Part shown: positions 31,575 through 40,851 of the stretch, piece by piece | Layout of the letters: each line of letters begins with the position of its first letter | Position numbering within the stretch: the first letter of the stretch is position 1 | Origin: Hyphomicrobiales bacterium | Lineage (GTDB): Bacteria; Pseudomonadota; Alphaproteobacteria; Rhizobiales; Rhizobiaceae | Direction of reading: 5' to 3' | DNA length: 64,000 bases | Assembly: GCA_021775495.1 (NCBI GenBank) | Contig: JAJFHT010000285.1 | Coordinates: 1 to 64,000 of the forward strand | Position numbers and translations under genes: made by a program | Notes under the pieces: generated by a model | Databases searched by the model: none | Told to the model about the DNA's origin: nothing | Seen by the model: only the letters and a program-made list of their open reading frames with translations

Positions 31575-31730
31575 TTCATGTTTCATTTGTAAACAGCGAT
31601 GCAAAACCGCCTGAAACTGAAAATATGAAAAAAATACAGAGGCTTGCGCGCGATCGGACAGAATTCTCAAGCGGATTCTGAAACAATTGAAACATTCGGG
31701 CGGCAGGCTGAAAAGCAACTGAAACACGCC
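31575..31730. promoter_or_regulatory. array of TGAAAC hexamers before kinase 1
   Basis: TGAAAC occurs on the plus strand at 31612-31617, 31679-31684, 31688-31693 and 31720-31725, and on the minus strand at 31580-31585. The pair at 31679/31688 has the form TGAAAC-AAT-TGAAAC. This is likely a binding array for the OmpR-type regulator encoded downstream. It may control both the kinase operon and the divergent hydrolase operon. Confidence 0.5.
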
Positions 31731-31747
31731 GCATATAGGAATTTGCC

Positions 31748-34669
31748 ATGGCAACGCATGCGCAACCCGCGGAGAGCTCCGCAGACGAACAGACCACCTC
31801 GATGATCCGGGCCGATTCCGACGGTCATGTCATTGAAGTAAATGGTGAATTTGCCGATCTCACGGTGTCCTGTTCGGAACCTGCCTGTGACGTATTGCGG
31901 AACTATCTGTCGCGTTTTGGATCAATCGAAGGAATGGATCTGACCGTCGACGCTGCTGCGGCCGCGAATTTTCTGGACATATGGCAACGGCCCGATAGCG
32001 ATGCGCTGGAAGCGCGAACCGGTCACGGCAACTGGCGTTTGCTGTCTTCCTGTCCTGAACCGTCGGGGGGAATGCTGTTTCTCAGCGTCAACATTGATCG
32101 CAAGAAACAGAAGACCGAACTTGCCGATTTCATCCTCGAAAATCATCCGTTGCCGCTTTGGACCAATGAGGCCGACACCGGCAATGTGGTCTACGCCAAT
32201 CCCGCCGCCAACCGGCTTTACAAGGTCAAGGTCGACCAGGGCCGGCGAATCGGTGAGTTCTTTTCCGATCGCGATGCAAATCGCGAGATGCTGCGAAAAC
32301 TGCAAAAACGCGGAACCGTCAATCAGTATGCCGTCCGCACCAAGGCGGAGGATGGCCGCGAAATCTGGGTTAATGGCAGCGCGACACTGGCGAATTTCGA
32401 GGGTCGCCAGCTCGTCATCAGCGCGATCCAGGATGTCACCGACCGCAAGGAGATCGAAGACGACAACCGCCGTGCCCGCGATCTGTTGCGTGATGCGATC
32501 GAGTCGCTTTCAGAGGGTTTCGCGCTTTACGACGATGATCGACGTCTGATCATGTGCAACACCCGCTACAAGGAAATGAACCATGCGGTGGCTGACCTGC
32601 TTGAACCGGGTCTCGACTGGGAAATCCTGATGCGCGAAACCGCGAGACGCGGCATCTATGCCGAAGCCATCGGACGCGAGGAGGAATGGGTCGCTGACCG
32701 GCTGGTCAATGGCGTCGAATATATCCAGGATTTCGAACTGGCGCATACGGACGGCACCTGCTCCCTGGTGTCCGTGCATCCGACCAATCTCGGCGGCTTC
32801 GTCGTGACGCGGACCGACATCACGGCCAAGAAACAGGCTGAATCGGTCGAACGCGATGGCGACCTTCTTGTCCGCCGGGTTCTCGATTCCGGCCCTGCGG
32901 CTGTTGTCATGGCGCGGCTCGGCGATGGCGAGATCATCTACCGTTCTCCGGCGGCAGTTGAACTGTTCGGCAAGGCCAAATCAGCCAAGGAGTTTTACAT
33001 CTCGCCGCTCGACCGGGCCGACTACGTCACCACCATCCTGTCCGACGGGCGCGCCGATGATTTCAAGCTCACCCTGTTCAATGCCAAGGGTGAACATTTT
33101 CCCGGTGCGCTCTACGGCCGCCTTGCCGAATACAAGGGTGATGAGGTGGTCGTCACCACCACCATCGACCTGACCGAACAAAACGAAGCCGACGCGCTGA
33201 TCCGCCGGGTGCTTGAGGCCTGTCCGGTTCCGATCCAGATGACCAATGCCGACACCGGTCGCCTGCTGTTCAGGAGCCCTGAAACGACGGCGCTTTTCGG
33301 ACCGGTCGACAGTTCAAAATCCTACTACGCCGATGCTGGCGAACGCGATGCCTATCTCATCAAATTGCGCAAAAACGGTTGGGTCAACGATCACAGGGTT
33401 CAGCTGATAAACGGCAAGGGAAAGACATTCTGGGGGTCGGTTTCCGCTCGCCTGATCGATTTCAAGGGGGAAGACGTCATCGTCTCCAACACCCGTGACA
33501 TGACCGGTGAACTGGCACTCCAGGAAGAACTTTCAAGCCAGCGCGAGATGCTGTTCCAGAATGAAAAAATGTCGGCATTGGGCGAGCTTCTTGCAGGAGT
33601 TGCCCACGAACTCAACAATCCGCTGTCGATTGTCGTCGGTCACGCCCTGATGTTGCGCGAGGAAGCAAGCGATCCTGACACTTTGCGGCGCATCGAAAAA
33701 ATCAGCAATGCGGCCGAACGCAGCGCCAAGATTGTCAAGACGTTCCTGGCAATGGCGCGCCAACAGCCTGCCCGCATGGAAAAGATCGATATCCAATCCG
33801 TGATAGCGACCGCCGTGGACGTTGCCGGATATGGCCGACAGGGTGAAAAGCTGGAAATCAACCGGACCCTGCCCGAAGACTTGCCCGAAATCGTCGCTGA
33901 CGCCGACCAGATCACCCAGGTGATCATCAATCTCGTCATCAATGCGGAACAGGCAATCGGCGGTTCGGGTATCGGAGACAGGATAGGTGTTTCGGCGCGG
34001 CTTGGAAGGTCGGATGACAGTGTCGAAATAATCGTTGAAGACAATGGACCGGGTGTTCCCGACAAGATCAAGGGACGGGTTTTTGAACCCTTTTTCACTA
34101 CCAAGGAAGTTGGAGACGGCACGGGCATCGGCCTGGCATTCTGTCATCGGATCATCCACTCGCACGGTGGTCATATCTGGCTCGATCCTGACCATGCGCC
34201 AGGTTGCCGTTTCATCATCGCCCTGCCGCTCGCCACAGCGGCGGATGGCGATGACGAGGAAGCAGATATCCCGTCCCGCACCGCAAGCGCCCGCCGGGTG
34301 CTGGTCGTCGATGACGAGCCGGATGTTGCGGAGCTCGTTGCCGAGATCCTGAAAAAAGAAGGCTTTGCGGTGGATCTCGCCGCATCGGGTGCCGAAGCGC
34401 TGCAACAGCTTGAGGGACAGTCATACGACGTTGTTTTGAGCGATCTCAACATGCCGGGCGTCGACGGCAGGGGACTATTTGAAGGGATGAAAAACGCGTA
34501 TCCGGATATGGCGAAACGGGTTGCTTTCATCACAGGAGACACAATGGGCGCGGCTTCGCAGAAGCTGCTGAAGGAAACCAACAGGCCGCATCTTGAAAAA
34601 CCGGTATCGCCGGCGGAACTCCGTGAACTTGTATACGGGATCCTCAATGGCGGGGAGCGTGGGAAGTAG
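31748..34669 (+). CDS. multi-PAS hybrid histidine kinase
   Basis: A 973-residue cytosolic-looking sensor kinase without clear membrane segments. Order: a variable N-terminal region (1-120), four PAS-like domains (about 120-235, 240-365, 372-480 and 481-590), the dimerisation/phosphoacceptor domain with LGELLAGVAHELNNPLSIVV, the HATPase with NAEQAI, EDNGPGVP and GTGIGLAFCH, and a C-terminal receiver (VLVVDDEPDVAELVAEIL, phospho-Asp in VLSDLNMPGVDG). It ends one base before the response-regulator ATG. The last two PAS domains are similar to each other, suggesting internal duplication. A paralogue with a different N-terminus is at 37301-40129. Confidence 0.9.
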   Translation: MATHAQPAESSADEQTTSMIRADSDGHVIEVNGEFADLTVSCSEPACDVLRNYLSRFGSIEGMDLTVDAAAAANFLDIWQRPDSDALEARTGHGNWRLLSSCPEPSGGMLFLSVNIDRKKQKTELADFILENHPLPLWTNEADTGNVVYANPAANRLYKVKVDQGRRIGEFFSDRDANREMLRKLQKRGTVNQYAVRTKAEDGREIWVNGSATLANFEGRQLVISAIQDVTDRKEIEDDNRRARDLLRDAIESLSEGFALYDDDRRLIMCNTRYKEMNHAVADLLEPGLDWEILMRETARRGIYAEAIGREEEWVADRLVNGVEYIQDFELAHTDGTCSLVSVHPTNLGGFVVTRTDITAKKQAESVERDGDLLVRRVLDSGPAAVVMARLGDGEIIYRSPAAVELFGKAKSAKEFYISPLDRADYVTTILSDGRADDFKLTLFNAKGEHFPGALYGRLAEYKGDEVVVTTTIDLTEQNEADALIRRVLEACPVPIQMTNADTGRLLFRSPETTALFGPVDSSKSYYADAGERDAYLIKLRKNGWVNDHRVQLINGKGKTFWGSVSARLIDFKGEDVIVSNTRDMTGELALQEELSSQREMLFQNEKMSALGELLAGVAHELNNPLSIVVGHALMLREEASDPDTLRRIEKISNAAERSAKIVKTFLAMARQQPARMEKIDIQSVIATAVDVAGYGRQGEKLEINRTLPEDLPEIVADADQITQVIINLVINAEQAIGGSGIGDRIGVSARLGRSDDSVEIIVEDNGPGVPDKIKGRVFEPFFTTKEVGDGTGIGLAFCHRIIHSHGGHIWLDPDHAPGCRFIIALPLATAADGDDEEADIPSRTASARRVLVVDDEPDVAELVAEILKKEGFAVDLAASGAEALQQLEGQSYDVVLSDLNMPGVDGRGLFEGMKNAYPDMAKRVAFITGDTMGAASQKLLKETNRPHLEKPVSPAELRELVYGILNGGERGK

Positions 34670-35389
34670 ATGGACAACGAAAACGTCAGAATTCTGGTAT
34701 GCGATGATGAGGTCGATGTACGTGAGATGCTGCAGGAATACCTCGGCAAGCGCGGTTTCAAGGTATCCACGGCCAGCAACGGCAAGGAATTGCGGGCTGT
34801 CTTTGCATCCGGTGGTTTCGAGTTGATAGTCCTGGACATCAACATGCCAGGCGAGGACGGGCTGTCGGTTTTGCGGTCCCTGCGGGCTGAAAACGATGTT
34901 GCAGTTGTCATGTTGACTGCGGCTGGAGAGGTCGTCGACCGAATTGTCGGCTTGGAAATGGGTGCCGATGACTATCTCGGCAAACCGGTGGACCTGCGGG
35001 AGCTGGAGGCCCGCATCAAGGCGGTTCTGCGCCGACGTGATGGTTCCGGTGCAAAGCCGAAAACCGCGGCGAAATCCGGTACGGCGCAATTCGGCGCCTA
35101 CACGCTCAACATCGAGGCAGCCAAGATGCATGGCGAAGACGGCAGCGAACTACCGTTGACCGCCATGGAATTCAGCCTTTTGAAGGTGTTTGCCGAGAAC
35201 CGCGGGCGCGTGCTCAACCGTGACCAGATCCTGGAGCAGGCGCATGATCGGTCGTGGGATCCTTTCGACCGCAGCATCGATATCCGCATCTCGAGACTTC
35301 GCCGCAAGATCGAAACAAATCCCGAAAAACCGACGATCATCCGCACCGTGCGCGGCATCGGCTATCTCTATGACCCTGAAGACGCCTGA
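34670..35389 (+). CDS. OmpR/PhoB-type response regulator (system 1)
   Basis: A 239-residue transcription factor. The receiver has RILVCDDEVDVREMLQEYL with phospho-Asp in LIVLDINMPGEDGLSVL and the conserved Lys in DDYLGKPVDLRELEARIKAV. The C-terminal winged helix ends with SIDIRISRLRRKIETNPEKP and IIRTVRGIGYLYD. It immediately follows kinase 1, so the pair is one unit. The DNA-binding helix is nearly identical to that of the second regulator (40126-40851), in line with the related hexamers TGAAAC and TGATAC upstream of the two systems. Confidence 0.92.
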   Translation: MDNENVRILVCDDEVDVREMLQEYLGKRGFKVSTASNGKELRAVFASGGFELIVLDINMPGEDGLSVLRSLRAENDVAVVMLTAAGEVVDRIVGLEMGADDYLGKPVDLRELEARIKAVLRRRDGSGAKPKTAAKSGTAQFGAYTLNIEAAKMHGEDGSELPLTAMEFSLLKVFAENRGRVLNRDQILEQAHDRSWDPFDRSIDIRISRLRRKIETNPEKPTIIRTVRGIGYLYDPEDA

Positions 35390-35407: not shown

Positions 35408-36616
35408 TCAGACTTCAACGCCGTCATCGGGTAGATTGGGTTGCTCGAAATCGCTTGCCGTCCCACGGCGTTTGAACACTGAACTGTGAATCGCCGCACC
35501 GGATGGTACCGTTCTGCCTTCAAAGCGCGGAACATACCATCCCATGAAGGTCCGCCGTGTAGTTGTTGCGCCGGCCGGCAGGCGTCGCGGCAGGAACTCG
35601 ATGGCCGACCAGGCAGCGTTCATGGATTCGTTTCGCCGAGCCAGCGGATCGGGTTCTACATAGTCTTTGTCCGGATTTTTGCCGAGAACAATCTCGTTCA
35701 CCGTCCGGGTCTTGAATGACAGACCCAGCTTCTTCGTTTCAGCAATCATCCATTCGAGCGGGATCTTGGCCAGATGGCTGCGGCGTTCGGGATAACCGCC
35801 ACCGATGTCGCAATGAACGCCCGAAAACCAGACTTCCCTGACGTCCTGCGATTTGGCCTTCTTCGTCTTGAACGGACCACCCCAGAAATCCTGGCCAGCC
35901 GGCCATAATTGCGGTTGGAACATGGTGCGTCTCTCGTCGATCGCCACCGCATGGCGAACCGATTCAACGCTCCGGTTTGTCTTGGTGAAGGCGTGCGAGC
36001 GAAGGCGCGGTGAAAACCGTCCCCATTCAATCACCGATCCGACTGTGTCGAACAGCCCGATGCAACGGATTGCCGGCCGCCGCGGTTCGAGGATGCGCTC
36101 ATACAACCGTACCTCGGCAAACGGATTTACTTTGGGATTGCGTTCGTCGCCTTGCGCCCCGGAACGGTTGTTGTCGCTGACACCCTTATAGGCGCGATAG
36201 GCATAGGCAAGCAGGTTGAGATTGACAGGGCGGATCAGACCGATCGCATGAATGAACCCGGCCAGGACGCGTGCGGTATAGGCGCCGCGGCTGAAGCCGA
36301 ACAGGAATATCTGATCCGGTTCCACGTGTTCGCCATCGGCGCGTTTGCCGTCATCATAGTTCTCGACCAGAAAGCGATAGGCCTCCTTGACGTTCTGATC
36401 GAGCCCCCAGCCGGTTGCCAGACCCCAGATTTCATGTGCCTTGCGATAGTAATAAGACCACGCATTGGCCGCACCGAACGTGCCGACGCCCGGATCGTAA
36501 TACACCAGTTGGTCGTCATTTTTGCCGAGTGCGCCATAGAGCCGAAGGATATTGGTCCTGTCTTCGGAAATCTCGTTCGATGTTCCATCGCAAAGAATGA
36601 CGATCCTCTTGGGCAT
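35408..36616 (-). CDS. DUF2235 domain alpha/beta hydrolase
   Basis: A 402-residue protein with the DUF2235 hallmarks: RIVILCDGTSNEISEDRTNI near the start, YYDPGVGTFGA, the nucleophile motif FLFGFSRGAYTARVLAGFIH, and SGVHCDIGGGYPERR with the likely catalytic Asp/His. DUF2235 includes type VI secretion phospholipase effectors of the Tle1 kind as well as uncharacterised cytosolic hydrolases. No secretion-related gene, immunity gene or signal peptide lies beside it, so an effector role is not supported here. It sits between two paralogous two-component systems and converges with the first regulator across 18 bases. Confidence 0.82.
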   Translation of the reverse strand: MPKRIVILCDGTSNEISEDRTNILRLYGALGKNDDQLVYYDPGVGTFGAANAWSYYYRKAHEIWGLATGWGLDQNVKEAYRFLVENYDDGKRADGEHVEPDQIFLFGFSRGAYTARVLAGFIHAIGLIRPVNLNLLAYAYRAYKGVSDNNRSGAQGDERNPKVNPFAEVRLYERILEPRRPAIRCIGLFDTVGSVIEWGRFSPRLRSHAFTKTNRSVESVRHAVAIDERRTMFQPQLWPAGQDFWGGPFKTKKAKSQDVREVWFSGVHCDIGGGYPERRSHLAKIPLEWMIAETKKLGLSFKTRTVNEIVLGKNPDKDYVEPDPLARRNESMNAAWSAIEFLPRRLPAGATTTRRTFMGWYVPRFEGRTVPSGAAIHSSVFKRRGTASDFEQPNLPDDGVEV

Positions 36617-36720
36617 GATGTCCTCTCATCGGGATGGTGGCCTGCAGTCTATCATTTGAAGCCGGGCCTGCCGAGTTCCGATTGAGTCAGCAATTGATCG
36701 CGAACGATTGTGTGCTTTAG

Positions 36721-37059
36721 TCACAGATAGGCCAGTCCGGTCAGAAGGCTTAGACCGCCACCCGTGGCTACCAAAGGCCAGTGCCGGTAGCCGCTATAGC
36801 TTCTGGCTCTGGCCCAGCCGCGAATGGCTTGAACACAGCCGGCCGTGAGCCACAAAGTGAAAAAGAAATACAGCAGTGCCTGATCGATAAGAGCAGCAAG
36901 GCTGTCCTGTGGTTGCCGGTAGAAGCCGGGGGCCAGCCAGGCAGCGATCAAGAGAAGCGCCAGCACTGCCCAGGCGATCAGAAATGGCCGCCAGATCGGC
37001 AGCAAAGCGGGTATGAGATAAAATGCCATCGGAATGGCCACGGCAATAAATACAGTCAT
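36721..37059 (-). CDS. small polytopic membrane protein, function unknown
   Basis: About 112 residues with three to four hydrophobic segments (AVAIPMAFYLIPALL, FLIAWAVLALLLIAAW, ALLYFFFTLWLTAGCVQ, WPLVATGGGLSLLTGLAYL). No family was recognised. ATG 37059 is chosen because the first membrane helix follows directly; the frame is open to 37101. It is read leftward from the region holding the TGATAC hexamers, so it may share regulation with the second kinase operon. Confidence 0.55.
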   Translation of the reverse strand: MTVFIAVAIPMAFYLIPALLPIWRPFLIAWAVLALLLIAAWLAPGFYRQPQDSLAALIDQALLYFFFTLWLTAGCVQAIRGWARARSYSGYRHWPLVATGGGLSLLTGLAYL

Positions 37060-37104
37060 TCTTTGCAGACCTTCGAGATTCAGTAAAACCATTACCTGCA
37101 ATTG

Positions 37105-37194
37105 GTATCAGGCTGAATTCACGGACTGTTTCGATTGTGCCCTTTGCTGCGCTGCCTGATACAATTGATACAATTGCGAACGTCAGACTGATAC
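37105..37194. promoter_or_regulatory. array of TGATAC hexamers before kinase 2
   Basis: TGATAC occurs on the plus strand at 37157-37162, 37166-37171 and 37189-37194, and as GTATCA (minus strand) at 37105-37110. The first two form TGATAC-AAT-TGATAC, the same spacing and spacer as the TGAAAC pair before kinase 1. Likely binding array for the regulator of system 2, placed between the small membrane protein gene and the kinase gene. Confidence 0.5.
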
Positions 37195-37300
37195 GTCGGG
37201 ATTCCAGACACTATTCATGGGCTCGGGGTATTGCTGGATGTCGTTGGATGGCACCATCCAGCGGAGCGAGTGAGAAAACAGAAGATCTGGAGCGCTGCGA

Positions 37301-40129
37301 TTGTCCAAGGACACTGAGAAAAAGACGCGCAAACCATCCCGGAATGAACATTCCGCGGAGGAAAAAGCACGCCTTGTCCTTGAGGCTCTGGCCGGAAAGC
37401 AGGACATCGCTGAGCTGTGCCGGCGGGAAGGCATTTCAAGATCGACGTTTGACAACTGGTCAAAGGCATTTGTCGAAGCGGGAACAGAACGGTTGTCCGA
37501 CCCTGATGCCGGCGTGCCAGCCGCCGCAAATGATGACACCGAACCATTGCGCAGCCTGGTTGAAGCGTTCCCGGGAAATTTGCTGATTTCCCGGCTGAAA
37601 GACGGCAAGGTGCTGTATCGCTCGCCAAGTTCGCAGGTGCTGTTCGGCAATCCGAAATACACAAGCAGCCACTGGATGAACCAGCACGAGCGGGCGCGTT
37701 TTATCGAACGGCTGAAACGCGACGGGCGGGTCGACAACTTCAAAATGACCGGGCGCAGCGTCGACGGAACGGCTTTCCCGACACAGTTCTCCTCGAGCGT
37801 TGTCGACTATGGCGGTGAGAAGCTTGTCCTGTCGTCTTCAATCGACCTGACCGAAATCCAGGCAATGCAGGCCGAAAGCGATATCGCCAACGCCCGGCTG
37901 CGCGATGCGATCAATGCGCTTGGCGAGGGATTTGTCCTTTATGACAAGGACGAGAAATTCGTCATGGCGAACGAACGGTACCGCGAGACACTCGCGCCCT
38001 ATCGGCATGTGATGACGCCAGGGACCCCGATGTCGGAAATATCCGGTCGGGCAATCCGTGATGGATTCATAAAGATCGTCACTCCGGTGGATGGCGATCT
38101 GGCTGGTCTGCTCAATGACGCCAAGGTAAACGATCCGTCGCAATCGGAGATACAGCTTGCCGACGGCACACAGAAGATTGTCACGCTGTCACGACTTGGT
38201 GACGGCGGACTTGCCGCCACGATGACTGACATTTCCGACCGGCGAAAAGTCGAGGTTCGCGCCCGCGAAATGATGAACGATATCATCCAGTCGCTGGACG
38301 AGGGCATCTCTCTTTACGATTCGGAACTGAAGTTCGTGATGCGGAACAGCCGGCGATACGAGATGCTGTCTGAGCATGAAGACAAGATTGAGGTCGGTAC
38401 GAGTTTGGGCGAGGTAACGCGCCGGCTTGCCGAAACCGGCAAGATTGCGCTGAATGATGGCGAGACGCCCGAGCAATGGTCCGATCGCATTGTTGAGCTG
38501 ACGAAGGCCTATCGGCGCGACATTGAGATTCCCGGTACGGACGGCCGCCTGTATGTGCTGTCGGTGCACAAGACCGAACTCGGCGGCTATCTGCTGCTGT
38601 TCAAGGACATAACCGAACAACGGCGCGCCAAGAAGGCGGAACGCGACGCCAATATGCTTCTCAAGGTCATAGTGGAAGCCTGCCCGACAACCTTTCTTGT
38701 CTCCCGTGTCGACGACGGCGAGATCATTTACTATCCGCCGGCCTCTCGCGACCGGTTTGGCGATATCGAATCGACCCTTGAGTTTTTTCTCAAGCCGGAG
38801 GACAGGGTCACCTATCTGAATGCCCTGTTGCCCTCGGGTTCCCTGGATGACTATCCGGTTAGTTTCCGCCGGCGTGATGGCAGCATCATGCAGGGTCTGA
38901 CCTCGGCACGCGTAACGGACTACAAGGGCGAGGACGTGATTGTCTCCTCGACTCGCGATATATCCGATCAGCTTGCCATGCAGGCCGAACTGGAACGCCA
39001 GCGAAACAAGGCGCACCAGAATGAAAAACTTTCCGCGCTGGGTGAACTGCTTGCCGGGGTCGCTCATGAACTGAACAACCCGCTTTCGATCGTCGTCGGA
39101 TATTCCCTTATGCTTCAGGACAAGATCAATGATCCGACACAGAAGCAGCGGATCGAGCGGATCGGCCAGGCGGCGGAACGGTGTGCCAAGATCGTGAAGA
39201 TGTTTCTTGCGATGGCCCGCCAGGGTCCCTCGCAAATAGAAATCTGTTCACTCAACGAAATCCTTGAAACCGTACTGGATGTGGTGGGATCCGGTCTCAA
39301 GACGGCTGGAGTGAGGATCAAGCGCGACCTGGATCCCGACATCCCACCCGTTGCGGCCGATCCCGACCAGATCGCCCAGGTCCTCACAAACCTTGTTTTG
39401 AATGCCGAACACGCTCTGGCCCAGAAGGACGGTGAGAGCGTTCTCAAGTTGATATCCCGCTATGACCGAAGGTCCGGCGAAGTTGTCATCAAGGTGCGTG
39501 ACAATGGGGCCGGTGTTCCCAAGCAACTTCAGCCGCGAATCTTCGAGCCGTTCTTCACCACGAAGGAGGCCGGTGTGGGAACAGGTGTCGGGCTCGCGTT
39601 CAGCCACCGGATCATCAGCTCCCATGGCGGCACATTGTCGTTGCATTCCTCTCCGGGAAAGGGGGCAACCTTCATCGTGCGTCTGAACGCCGTCGAGAAT
39701 GCCGATGAAACGGGCGACAGCAGAACTATCGACACCTGTGCCACGAAAAACTGCCGGGTCCTTGTTGTTGATGACGAACCCGGAGTGACCGAGCTGGTAA
39801 AGGATGTTCTGAATGAGAGCGGATATGAAGTCGAGATCTGCAACGATCCGGTAGCCGCTCTTGAGATGCTTGCAGCGCAGCGATTCGACGCCGTCCTCAG
39901 TGATATGCGGATGCCGGGATTGGACGGTCGGCGTTTCCGCGAAAAAGCGGTGGCAGCCGACGCACAATATTCCAACAGGATTGCCTTCGTCACCGGGGAT
40001 ACAATGAGCCCGGAAGTAATCAAATTGTTCAAATCGACATCAACGCCTTATCTGGAAAAACCGATTGTACCGTCGGATCTGATCAGGCTTGTCGAACAAC
40101 TGTGTAGCGGGAACGGAACACTGTCATGA
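37301..40129 (+). CDS. hybrid histidine kinase with N-terminal transposase-like helix-turn-helix
   Basis: A 942-residue protein. Residues 18-67 (HSAEEKARLVLEALAGKQDI, then AELCRREGISRSTFDNWSKA) are a homeodomain-like helix-turn-helix of the kind at the start of IS3-family transposase OrfA proteins. Four PAS-like domains follow (about 79-185, 195-310, 320-440, 448-560), then the phosphoacceptor LGELLAGVAHELNNPLSIVV, an HATPase (DNGAGVPKQLQ, GTGVGLAFSH) and a receiver (VLVVDDEPGVTELVKDVL, VLSDMRMPGLDG). Start is a TTG at 37301 with GGAG eight bases upstream. No transposase catalytic domain or IS ends are present, so the helix-turn-helix is part of the kinase. It overlaps its regulator by ATGA. 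Confidence 0.88.
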   Translation: MSKDTEKKTRKPSRNEHSAEEKARLVLEALAGKQDIAELCRREGISRSTFDNWSKAFVEAGTERLSDPDAGVPAAANDDTEPLRSLVEAFPGNLLISRLKDGKVLYRSPSSQVLFGNPKYTSSHWMNQHERARFIERLKRDGRVDNFKMTGRSVDGTAFPTQFSSSVVDYGGEKLVLSSSIDLTEIQAMQAESDIANARLRDAINALGEGFVLYDKDEKFVMANERYRETLAPYRHVMTPGTPMSEISGRAIRDGFIKIVTPVDGDLAGLLNDAKVNDPSQSEIQLADGTQKIVTLSRLGDGGLAATMTDISDRRKVEVRAREMMNDIIQSLDEGISLYDSELKFVMRNSRRYEMLSEHEDKIEVGTSLGEVTRRLAETGKIALNDGETPEQWSDRIVELTKAYRRDIEIPGTDGRLYVLSVHKTELGGYLLLFKDITEQRRAKKAERDANMLLKVIVEACPTTFLVSRVDDGEIIYYPPASRDRFGDIESTLEFFLKPEDRVTYLNALLPSGSLDDYPVSFRRRDGSIMQGLTSARVTDYKGEDVIVSSTRDISDQLAMQAELERQRNKAHQNEKLSALGELLAGVAHELNNPLSIVVGYSLMLQDKINDPTQKQRIERIGQAAERCAKIVKMFLAMARQGPSQIEICSLNEILETVLDVVGSGLKTAGVRIKRDLDPDIPPVAADPDQIAQVLTNLVLNAEHALAQKDGESVLKLISRYDRRSGEVVIKVRDNGAGVPKQLQPRIFEPFFTTKEAGVGTGVGLAFSHRIISSHGGTLSLHSSPGKGATFIVRLNAVENADETGDSRTIDTCATKNCRVLVVDDEPGVTELVKDVLNESGYEVEICNDPVAALEMLAAQRFDAVLSDMRMPGLDGRRFREKAVAADAQYSNRIAFVTGDTMSPEVIKLFKSTSTPYLEKPIVPSDLIRLVEQLCSGNGTLS

Positions 40130-40851
40130 CGCAGACCCACAAAGCCCAAATTCTTGTCTGTGACGACGAACCCCACCTGCGAGAAATGGTCGGGGAATAT
40201 CTTACCGAGCGGGGATACAACGTCATCGAGGCTGCTGATGCGGAGACGATGCATGCGTTTATGGACAGCTCCGCTGCTGATCTGGTCATTCTCGATATCA
40301 ACATGCCGGGGCAGGATGGGTTGGCCGCGCTGAAGACCCTGCGGGAAAAATCAAATGTGCCGGTGATCATGCTGACTGCCGCTGCGGAAGTCATCGACCG
40401 GGTTGTCGGTCTTGAATTCGGTGCTGATGACTATCTCGGAAAACCGGTGGATCTTCGCGAGCTAGAAGCAAGAATAAAGGCTGCATTGCGCCGTTATCTG
40501 GAAATGAATGGTGATGCCGGCAGCTCACCCCAAGCGAAAACACGCAGCGGTGAAACAGTCGATTTCGGCAAGTGCCGGCTGGATCTGGGCGGAGCAAGAC
40601 TGTTCGGGGCCGATGGTCAGGAAATTCCACTGACAGCGATGGAATTCAATCTGCTGCGAGTGTTTGCCCTCAATCGTGGCAGGGCGCTCAACCGTGACCA
40701 GTTGCTGGAGCAGGCGCATGACCGGGGCTGGGAGCCTTTCGACCGATCGATCGATCTGCGCATCTCAAGGCTTCGCCGGAAAATCGAGACCAATCCGCAA
40801 AAACCGGAAGTCATTCGTACGGTACGCGGCATCGGTTACATCTTCGATTGA
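40126..40851 (+). CDS. OmpR/PhoB-type response regulator (system 2)
   Basis: A 241-residue paralogue of the regulator at 34670-35389. The receiver has QILVCDDEPHLREMVGEYLT, phospho-Asp in LVILDINMPGQDGLAAL, and Lys in DDYLGKPVDLRELEARIKAA. The winged-helix domain ends SIDLRISRLRRKIETNPQKP and VIRTVRGIGYIFD. Its ATG overlaps the kinase stop, showing translational coupling. Main differences from system 1 lie in the receiver helices and linker, which would help keep the two pathways insulated. Confidence 0.92.
   Translation: MTQTHKAQILVCDDEPHLREMVGEYLTERGYNVIEAADAETMHAFMDSSAADLVILDINMPGQDGLAALKTLREKSNVPVIMLTAAAEVIDRVVGLEFGADDYLGKPVDLRELEARIKAALRRYLEMNGDAGSSPQAKTRSGETVDFGKCRLDLGGARLFGADGQEIPLTAMEFNLLRVFALNRGRALNRDQLLEQAHDRGWEPFDRSIDLRISRLRRKIETNPQKPEVIRTVRGIGYIFD

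Follow-up and report, generated by a model that had tools for sequence, protein, structure and literature searches.

To our knowledge, a domain of the DNA-binding type is rare in sensor kinases. In the hybrid two-component systems of Bacteroides, a kinase and a DNA-binding domain share one polypeptide, and the output domain, which is of the AraC type, is the regulator's own. A DNA-binding hybrid kinase is also known from Vibrio cholerae: ChiS, which likewise has a DNA-binding-type domain in the kinase chain. DNA binding has been shown for ChiS, and the domain is a C-terminal helix-turn-helix (HTH) variant unrelated to the one described below (PMC8092284). ChiS is, in addition, anchored in the membrane. 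DNA-binding hybrid kinases are already known; what is new is a hybrid kinase that bears a captured N-terminal HTH of the insertion-sequence type. Among the papers listed for the open PMC library, judged by title and the opening of the abstract, none is on such a fusion, and we found none on the two-component family to which the kinase belongs or on the promoter box of that family.

The kinase lies in a window of 64,000 nt, the whole stretch of DNA that was analysed, and is encoded on the forward strand, as are the features of the window below unless stated otherwise. The open reading frame (37301–40129, 942 aa, TTG start) encodes a hybrid histidine kinase with an N-terminal transposase-type HTH. 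The HTH_Tnp_1 module, residues 16–65 (37346–37495), is followed in the same frame, as the original prediction had it, by PAS domains at residues ~83–562 (37547–38986), HisKA (580–641) and HATPase_c (687–796; together 39038–39688), and a receiver domain (820–931; 39758–40093). The HisKA domain with its HELNN box (VAHELNNP), the HATPase_c domain, and the receiver identify the protein as a hybrid histidine kinase. The Pfam matches beyond the HTH are PAS_7 (two stretches), PAS_8, HisKA, HATPase_c, and Response_reg. The predicted number of PAS domains, four, is a fair count in that the first (~83–190) resembles the last (38639–38989) with 32% identity; these two are weak in Pfam and evident mainly by their mutual similarity. 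The kinase is probably cytoplasmic, because its largest 19-residue hydropathy mean is only 1.37, and there is no strongly hydrophobic segment. Judged by this layout rather than by a ChiS-domain profile, the protein is not of the ChiS family: its C terminus is a receiver. It differs from the Bacteroides hybrids, as partially described, in having its HTH at the N terminus and a separate OmpR-type regulator.

The proposed transposase-type HTH depended on a match to transposase HTH profiles, and that match was found. In the whole kinase, HTH_Tnp_1 (PF01527) reaches 30.2 bits (E 5.4e-7), above its Pfam gathering threshold of 24.1; for HTH_28 the score is 28.3 bits and the threshold 25. Residues 1–82 alone match HTH_Tnp_1 and HTH_28 with E values of 8.8e-8 and 1.1e-7. 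A single-sequence AlphaFold2 model of residues 1–76 has three helices, at 19–30, 36–43, and 47–65, with a pLDDT of about 86 across residues 21–60; a longer model, residues 1–195, reaches a pLDDT of 44.9. Foldseek gave no match to the HTH model at E ≤ 0.001, VIA-align 2 (best Z 5.8) aligned it with HTH folds of a generic kind and, by chance, with helical structures, and a sequence search of solved structures returned chance matches only. It had also been claimed that a DDE catalytic domain and insertion-sequence terminal repeats are absent. Pfam finds no DDE domain in the kinase, nor in seven further open reading frames between 29784 and 44290, one of which matched nothing. Three inverted-repeat pairs of at least 14 nt occur in 36600–40600, and none flanks the module or the kinase gene.

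A ribosome starting downstream of the module would have refuted the fusion, and this reading was rejected. A TGA at 37271 closes the frame on its upstream side, so that it is open from 37274, 9 codons before the start; the TTG at 37301 is the first ATG, GTG, or TTG in it, and is preceded at 8 nt by a GGAG Shine–Dalgarno sequence (37289–37292). The next in-frame starts, at residues 65, 72, and 83, all lie beyond the HTH, and the two of these that were checked, at residues 65 and 83, have no Shine–Dalgarno-like signal before them. The fused kinase of genome G679, one of the relatives described below, also starts at a TTG with a GGAG at 8 nt, and those of G019, G120, and G084 have a TTG just upstream of the HTH with a GGAG 7 or 8 nt before it. 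No clear GGAG start signal was found for the sixth fused kinase, on contig C382. Between G019 and G120, the HTH shows a dN of 0.061 and a dS of 0.24 (from 7 and 8 changes in 53 codons), which indicates purifying selection between these two relatives. The start codon, the Shine–Dalgarno sequence, and the dN/dS evidence together show that the HTH module is read.

A survey for further kinases with this fusion yielded five more genes. One is in the same genome (G000), on contig C382 (L046, 4701–6857, 718 aa); it has the same kind of start and two PAS_7 stretches in Pfam. By profile search, the six fused genes come from 5 of 394 genomes of the family (G000, G019, G120, G084, and G679); a single-sequence search of 297 family genomes found fused genes in 4. 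These counts are lower bounds, as only part of the candidates were scored in many genomes, and the genome samples overlap between searches. The fusion spans three genera: that of the source genome (one genome), that of G019 (2 of 3 genomes), and that of G084 (2 of 8). No match spanning both the HTH and PAS was found outside the family in overlapping order and phylum samples of 397, 249, and 398 genomes. Three of the six fused genes pass the HTH_Tnp_1 cut-off of 24.1, namely the 37301 kinase, G084 (29.1), and G679 (27.3); G019 (21.5) and C382 (19.3) fall under it, and Pfam lists no match for G120. At E ≤ 10, the HTH profile matched only the six fused genes among 28 kinases of the subfamily, a set from which the kinase L010 was left out, its motif differing. 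The HTH–kinase fusion is thereby confirmed as a real observation, and the arrangement is more than chance because it recurs in five other genes. A search of viral contigs with the HTH confirmed no related locus, and among 210 plasmid records none covered 80% of the query. The two longest plasmid matches (query 7–138 and 7–150) were considered as fused kinases and rejected, as both adjoin IS110 transposase genes instead; the PLSDB gene table, itself incomplete, places no kinase beside them.

The window contains a second kinase of the subfamily at 31748–34669, with its own regulator at 34670–35389. Its body is similar to that of the 37301 kinase and, as had been noted, it has no HTH according to Pfam. 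From this kinase the original prediction had argued that the module was gained or lost after a duplication, taking 31748 as the relevant copy. That argument does not stand. The nearest paralogue in the genome is C382, with 63% core identity against 45% for 31748, and it keeps the module; 31748 is an old paralogue and was rejected as the closest copy. In a kinase-core tree of 29 rows with a midpoint root, 31748 is set apart by a branch with 100/99 support, and its side includes kinases from G019 and G084, two genomes whose fused kinases fall across that branch. Most likely, the two kinases of the source locus separated before the HTH was captured, because 31748 groups with kinases from these genomes that also have a fused one. 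All six fused kinases lie on one side of a supported branch, where unfused kinases are found too: G163, G114, L117, and L118, and at a greater distance L009 and L010. On this tree, the HTH requires 2 label changes, and 34% of bootstraps require 1, so that a single origin of the fusion is compatible with the kinase-core tree but not shown by the tree itself.

The nearest free-standing relatives of the HTH are OrfA-like proteins, with 48–55% identity (six rows of alignment A2) and up to 60% across shorter stretches. The module shares the HTH_Tnp_1 fold with IS3-type, ISMex16-like OrfA; one matching plasmid open reading frame is annotated as ISMex16, IS3. One such OrfA, L030, is 124 aa long, has by eye a leucine-rich C-terminal stretch, and adjoins an open reading frame with an rve domain, whereas the HTH at 37301 precedes PAS and kinase domains. 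The IS3-type OrfA/OrfB layout is absent from the locus: no rve domain was found by Pfam in the seven further open reading frames scanned. The IS66 TnpA accessory protein (NF047595) gave the best NCBIfam name, at 36.9 bits against a cut-off of 74, and IS66 TnpA was considered as the nearest source. It was rejected, as L030 scores best as IS3, the rve open reading frame that follows it passes the IS3 cut-off, and the matching plasmid frame is annotated as IS3. On NF047595, an IS3-type OrfA itself scores just 38.8 bits. The assembly comprises 6.03 Mb in 444 contigs and is 94.9% complete; in it, an OrfA profile matches only the two fused kinases and no free OrfA of this type. The capture is probably old because there is no free OrfA in the assembly and no transposase in the scanned neighbouring open reading frames. 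In an HTH tree of 26 rows, which has long branches, the six fused domains lie on one side of a branch supported at 84/74, a split recovered in 81% of bootstraps.

What has been conserved in the captured domain bears on its present role. All six fused kinases have the same residue at eleven positions (18, 19, 26, 27, 30, 40, 44, 53, 57, 61, and 65), of which eight are likewise fixed in 20/20 OrfA rows. Five other residues, polar or aromatic and fixed in the same 20 rows, have mostly been replaced: Y51 is retained in 0/6 fused kinases, K55 in 1/6, and S54, K62, and R64 in 2/6 each. Residues 46–52, where the recognition helix begins, are in its first half and belong to the least conserved parts: pairwise identity there is 0.25 among the fused kinases versus 0.62 among OrfA proteins, and over the turn, 31–35, it is 0.23 in the fused kinases. 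These figures mean that the HTH fold is wanted and that the original OrfA DNA target probably no longer is, if the residues presumed to touch DNA in OrfA do so.

The replacement of most OrfA-invariant surface residues speaks against the view that DNA binding by the HTH persists, its target having moved from lineage to lineage, and that a kinase dimer on DNA near promoters phosphorylates or competes with the regulator there. We regard this explanation as possible but rather unlikely. Changing recognition residues are also seen in retargeted DNA binders, and the sister copies of G019 and G120 differ in the HTH only at 46–49, the start of the recognition helix, and at 64. Position 62 is basic (K or R) in 5/6 fused kinases, and a basic N-terminal arm is kept, by eye, in the 37301 and G679 copies. 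Further points in its favour are the predicted and profile-matched HTH fold, the absence of a strongly hydrophobic segment from the 37301 kinase, and the precedent of ChiS (PMC8092284). A loss of positive charge was considered as a sign of lost DNA binding and weakened on closer view: the shift is clear when flanks are included (0 to +4 in 20 OrfA rows, −4 to +2 in 6 fused rows) and slight in the bare core (−2 to +1 in OrfA, 0 to −2 in fused), where rank tests are not independent evidence, the rows being related.

The conservation figures also bear on the idea that the HTH merely came along in the capture, as a passenger that does little itself. Between G019 and G084, 26/53 HTH residues are identical as against 210/238 in the kinase core, with synonymous change saturated, so the HTH diverges more than the core; unfused kinases of the same clade, moreover, manage without it. 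However, eleven positions are invariant in six genes that otherwise share little HTH identity, dN is below dS between G019 and G120, and both paralogues of the source genome, 37301 and C382, keep the domain. We consider a mere passenger improbable.

Upstream of the kinase, a direct-repeat promoter box, TGATACAATTGATACAAT, lies at 37157–37174, 126 bp before the start codon and without mismatch; 0.02 matches at up to 3 mismatches are expected in the 64,000-nt window. A variant, TGAAACAATTGAAACATT, lies before the 31748 kinase (31679–31696). The box, at 14/18 positions or better, is near the start of 6/6 fused and 16/22 unfused kinases; 1 of 560 shuffled stretches reaches 14. Six of the unfused kinases (G163, G114, G175, G084, G019, and G113) had been fetched because the box was already known there, and without them it precedes 10/16. 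C382 has a diverged form, TGATACAATCGATACAGT, matching at 16/18, and L010, outside the 28-kinase set, also has a box upstream. The exact pattern occurs at 19 sites in 17 of 247 family genomes, and the reversed pattern at none; 11 of the 19 sites precede a kinase of this subfamily, one of the 11 being fused. Directly behind the 37301 kinase is an OmpR-type response regulator (40126–40851; Response_reg and Trans_reg_C), whose start overlaps the kinase stop (ATGA). A narrow first look had suggested that many unfused relatives have no adjacent regulator; this was set aside, as tblastn found a relative of the window's two OmpR-type regulators directly or closely behind 26/28 kinases. The exceptions are C382, with none within 1.5 kb downstream, and C304, at a contig edge. 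The regulators directly behind the fused kinases of G019, G120, G084, and G679 are 71–73% identical to that at 40126. On the 31748 side of the tree, the box is mostly in its TGAAAC form, and the regulators are in most cases nearer to 31748's.

The unfused kinases of the subfamily (31748 type, G163, G114, Heliomarina L009, and L010) thus share with the fused ones the kinase core and receiver, the adjacent OmpR-type regulator (21/22), and the box (16/22), and differ in having no HTH. On these counts, the box tracks the kinase–regulator pair and not the HTH, because it also precedes unfused kinases with regulators. We suggest that TGATACAATTGATACAAT is probably the site of the cognate OmpR-type regulator, and autoregulation by that regulator would be the simplest reading. 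Two observations speak against it: the box of C382 has no regulator next to its kinase, and for several kinases that do have a regulator no clear box is evident. The box was rejected as evidence that the HTH binds the kinase's own promoter, an idea raised with the original prediction: the only conserved element found there (37157–37174) is common to kinases without the HTH. With the box masked, no word common to five fused promoters beat the shuffles, in a comparison of low power (six shuffles per word length) that excluded G019 as a near copy of G120. The promoter evidence therefore offers the DNA-binding explanation no element specific to the fused genes.

A further explanation is that the cognate OmpR-type regulator is docked by the HTH, which would either channel phosphotransfer or keep the kinase at promoters to which the regulator is bound. 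SciP, a small HTH protein, reportedly docks CtrA in this way, and a Rhodobacter sphaeroides HTH protein of the SciP family, 2jrt, is one of the better structural matches to the HTH model (Z 5.4 for 61 residues, a score that many others share). A regulator lies directly behind 5/6 fused kinases. However, a similar regulator also comes right after 21/22 kinases that have no module, the remaining one being at a contig end, and residues 1–82 score far below the SciP (DUF1153) cut-offs (12.7 against 100 for NF051866 and 14.2 against 23.5 for PF06627). A role tied to the adjacent regulator is not general, because C382 has no regulator within 1.5 kb downstream. We think regulator docking quite improbable.

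Several other observations concern the boxes and their surroundings. Exact TGAAACAATTGAAACAA boxes lie 45–71 bp before open reading frames with, by eye, RTX-like glycine–aspartate or similar repeats at 4/19 sites (L099, G102:C3:172696; L101, G223:C8:148; L103, G162:C12:69258; L104, G201:C68:203018), and this regulator family may have RTX-type surface proteins among its targets. Another box is 42 bp before a small open reading frame that by eye is globin-like (L102, G201:C68:197230). Several 31748-type promoters (31679–31727 and relatives) have a second pair, TGAAAA...CTGAAACA, about 30 bp after the TGAAAC box. Between the two kinase–regulator pairs of the window, on the reverse strand, is an open reading frame that matches the catalytic domain of Tle1-like T6SS phospholipases (35408–36616; PF09994, 271 bits). 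In G019, G120, G084, and G679 (upstream DNA L043, L044, L045, and L081), a gene for a small cysteine-containing, secreted-looking protein seems, by eye, to end ahead of the fused kinase; it is listed as an open reading frame for G120 and was not seen at the 37301 locus.

Our preferred proposal, made tentatively and at somewhat less than even odds, is that the HTH serves the kinase as a contact or dimer module rather than as a reader of one DNA site. Dimerisation, which the original prediction had offered as its alternative, fits slightly better than binding to the kinase's own promoter. This contact role is supported by a fold that is held while OrfA surface residues are replaced, by a promoter box independent of the HTH, by the signs that the domain is translated and selected, and by an HTH tree that splits fused domains from OrfA. 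Against it stand the basic residue at position 62, the small core charge shift, the basic arm of two copies, and the resemblance to a retargeted DNA binder. The two label changes of the kinase-core tree and the long branches of the HTH tree count against the single-origin part of the proposal.

We propose the following. The common ancestor of a few genera within one family would have had a PAS-rich hybrid kinase that took up the HTH half of an OrfA of the IS3 type; here we infer both the direction and the number of captures. The module would have lost the C-terminal part of OrfA and been kept as a fold, its surface now largely unlike that of OrfA and differing between orthologues. In its contact role, the HTH may pair two kinase subunits or dock a protein partner, and this contact may tune signal passing along the PAS chain. 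To judge from the domains, signal, phosphotransfer, and output would otherwise take the usual two-component route, and the OmpR-type regulator presumably paired with the kinase probably controls the operon through the TGATACAAT direct repeat.

ChiS shows that a sensor kinase with a DNA-binding-type domain can rewrite the two-component scheme. The HTH–kinase fusion is independent of that case, and its domain, conserved in six genes, is of the insertion-sequence type. The module is small (80 residues) and so suited to study in isolation, and close relatives with and without it have the same box and regulator, which makes its part separable from that of the regulator. The shared box is in turn a usable lead to the regulon of this two-component family. 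It is tempting, if unlikely to prove right, to see here a domesticated mobile-element HTH that still binds DNA, its recognition helix changing between sisters, and that targets the kinase beside its own regulator. If that were true, a sensor kinase would be targeted to promoters at chosen chromosomal sites.
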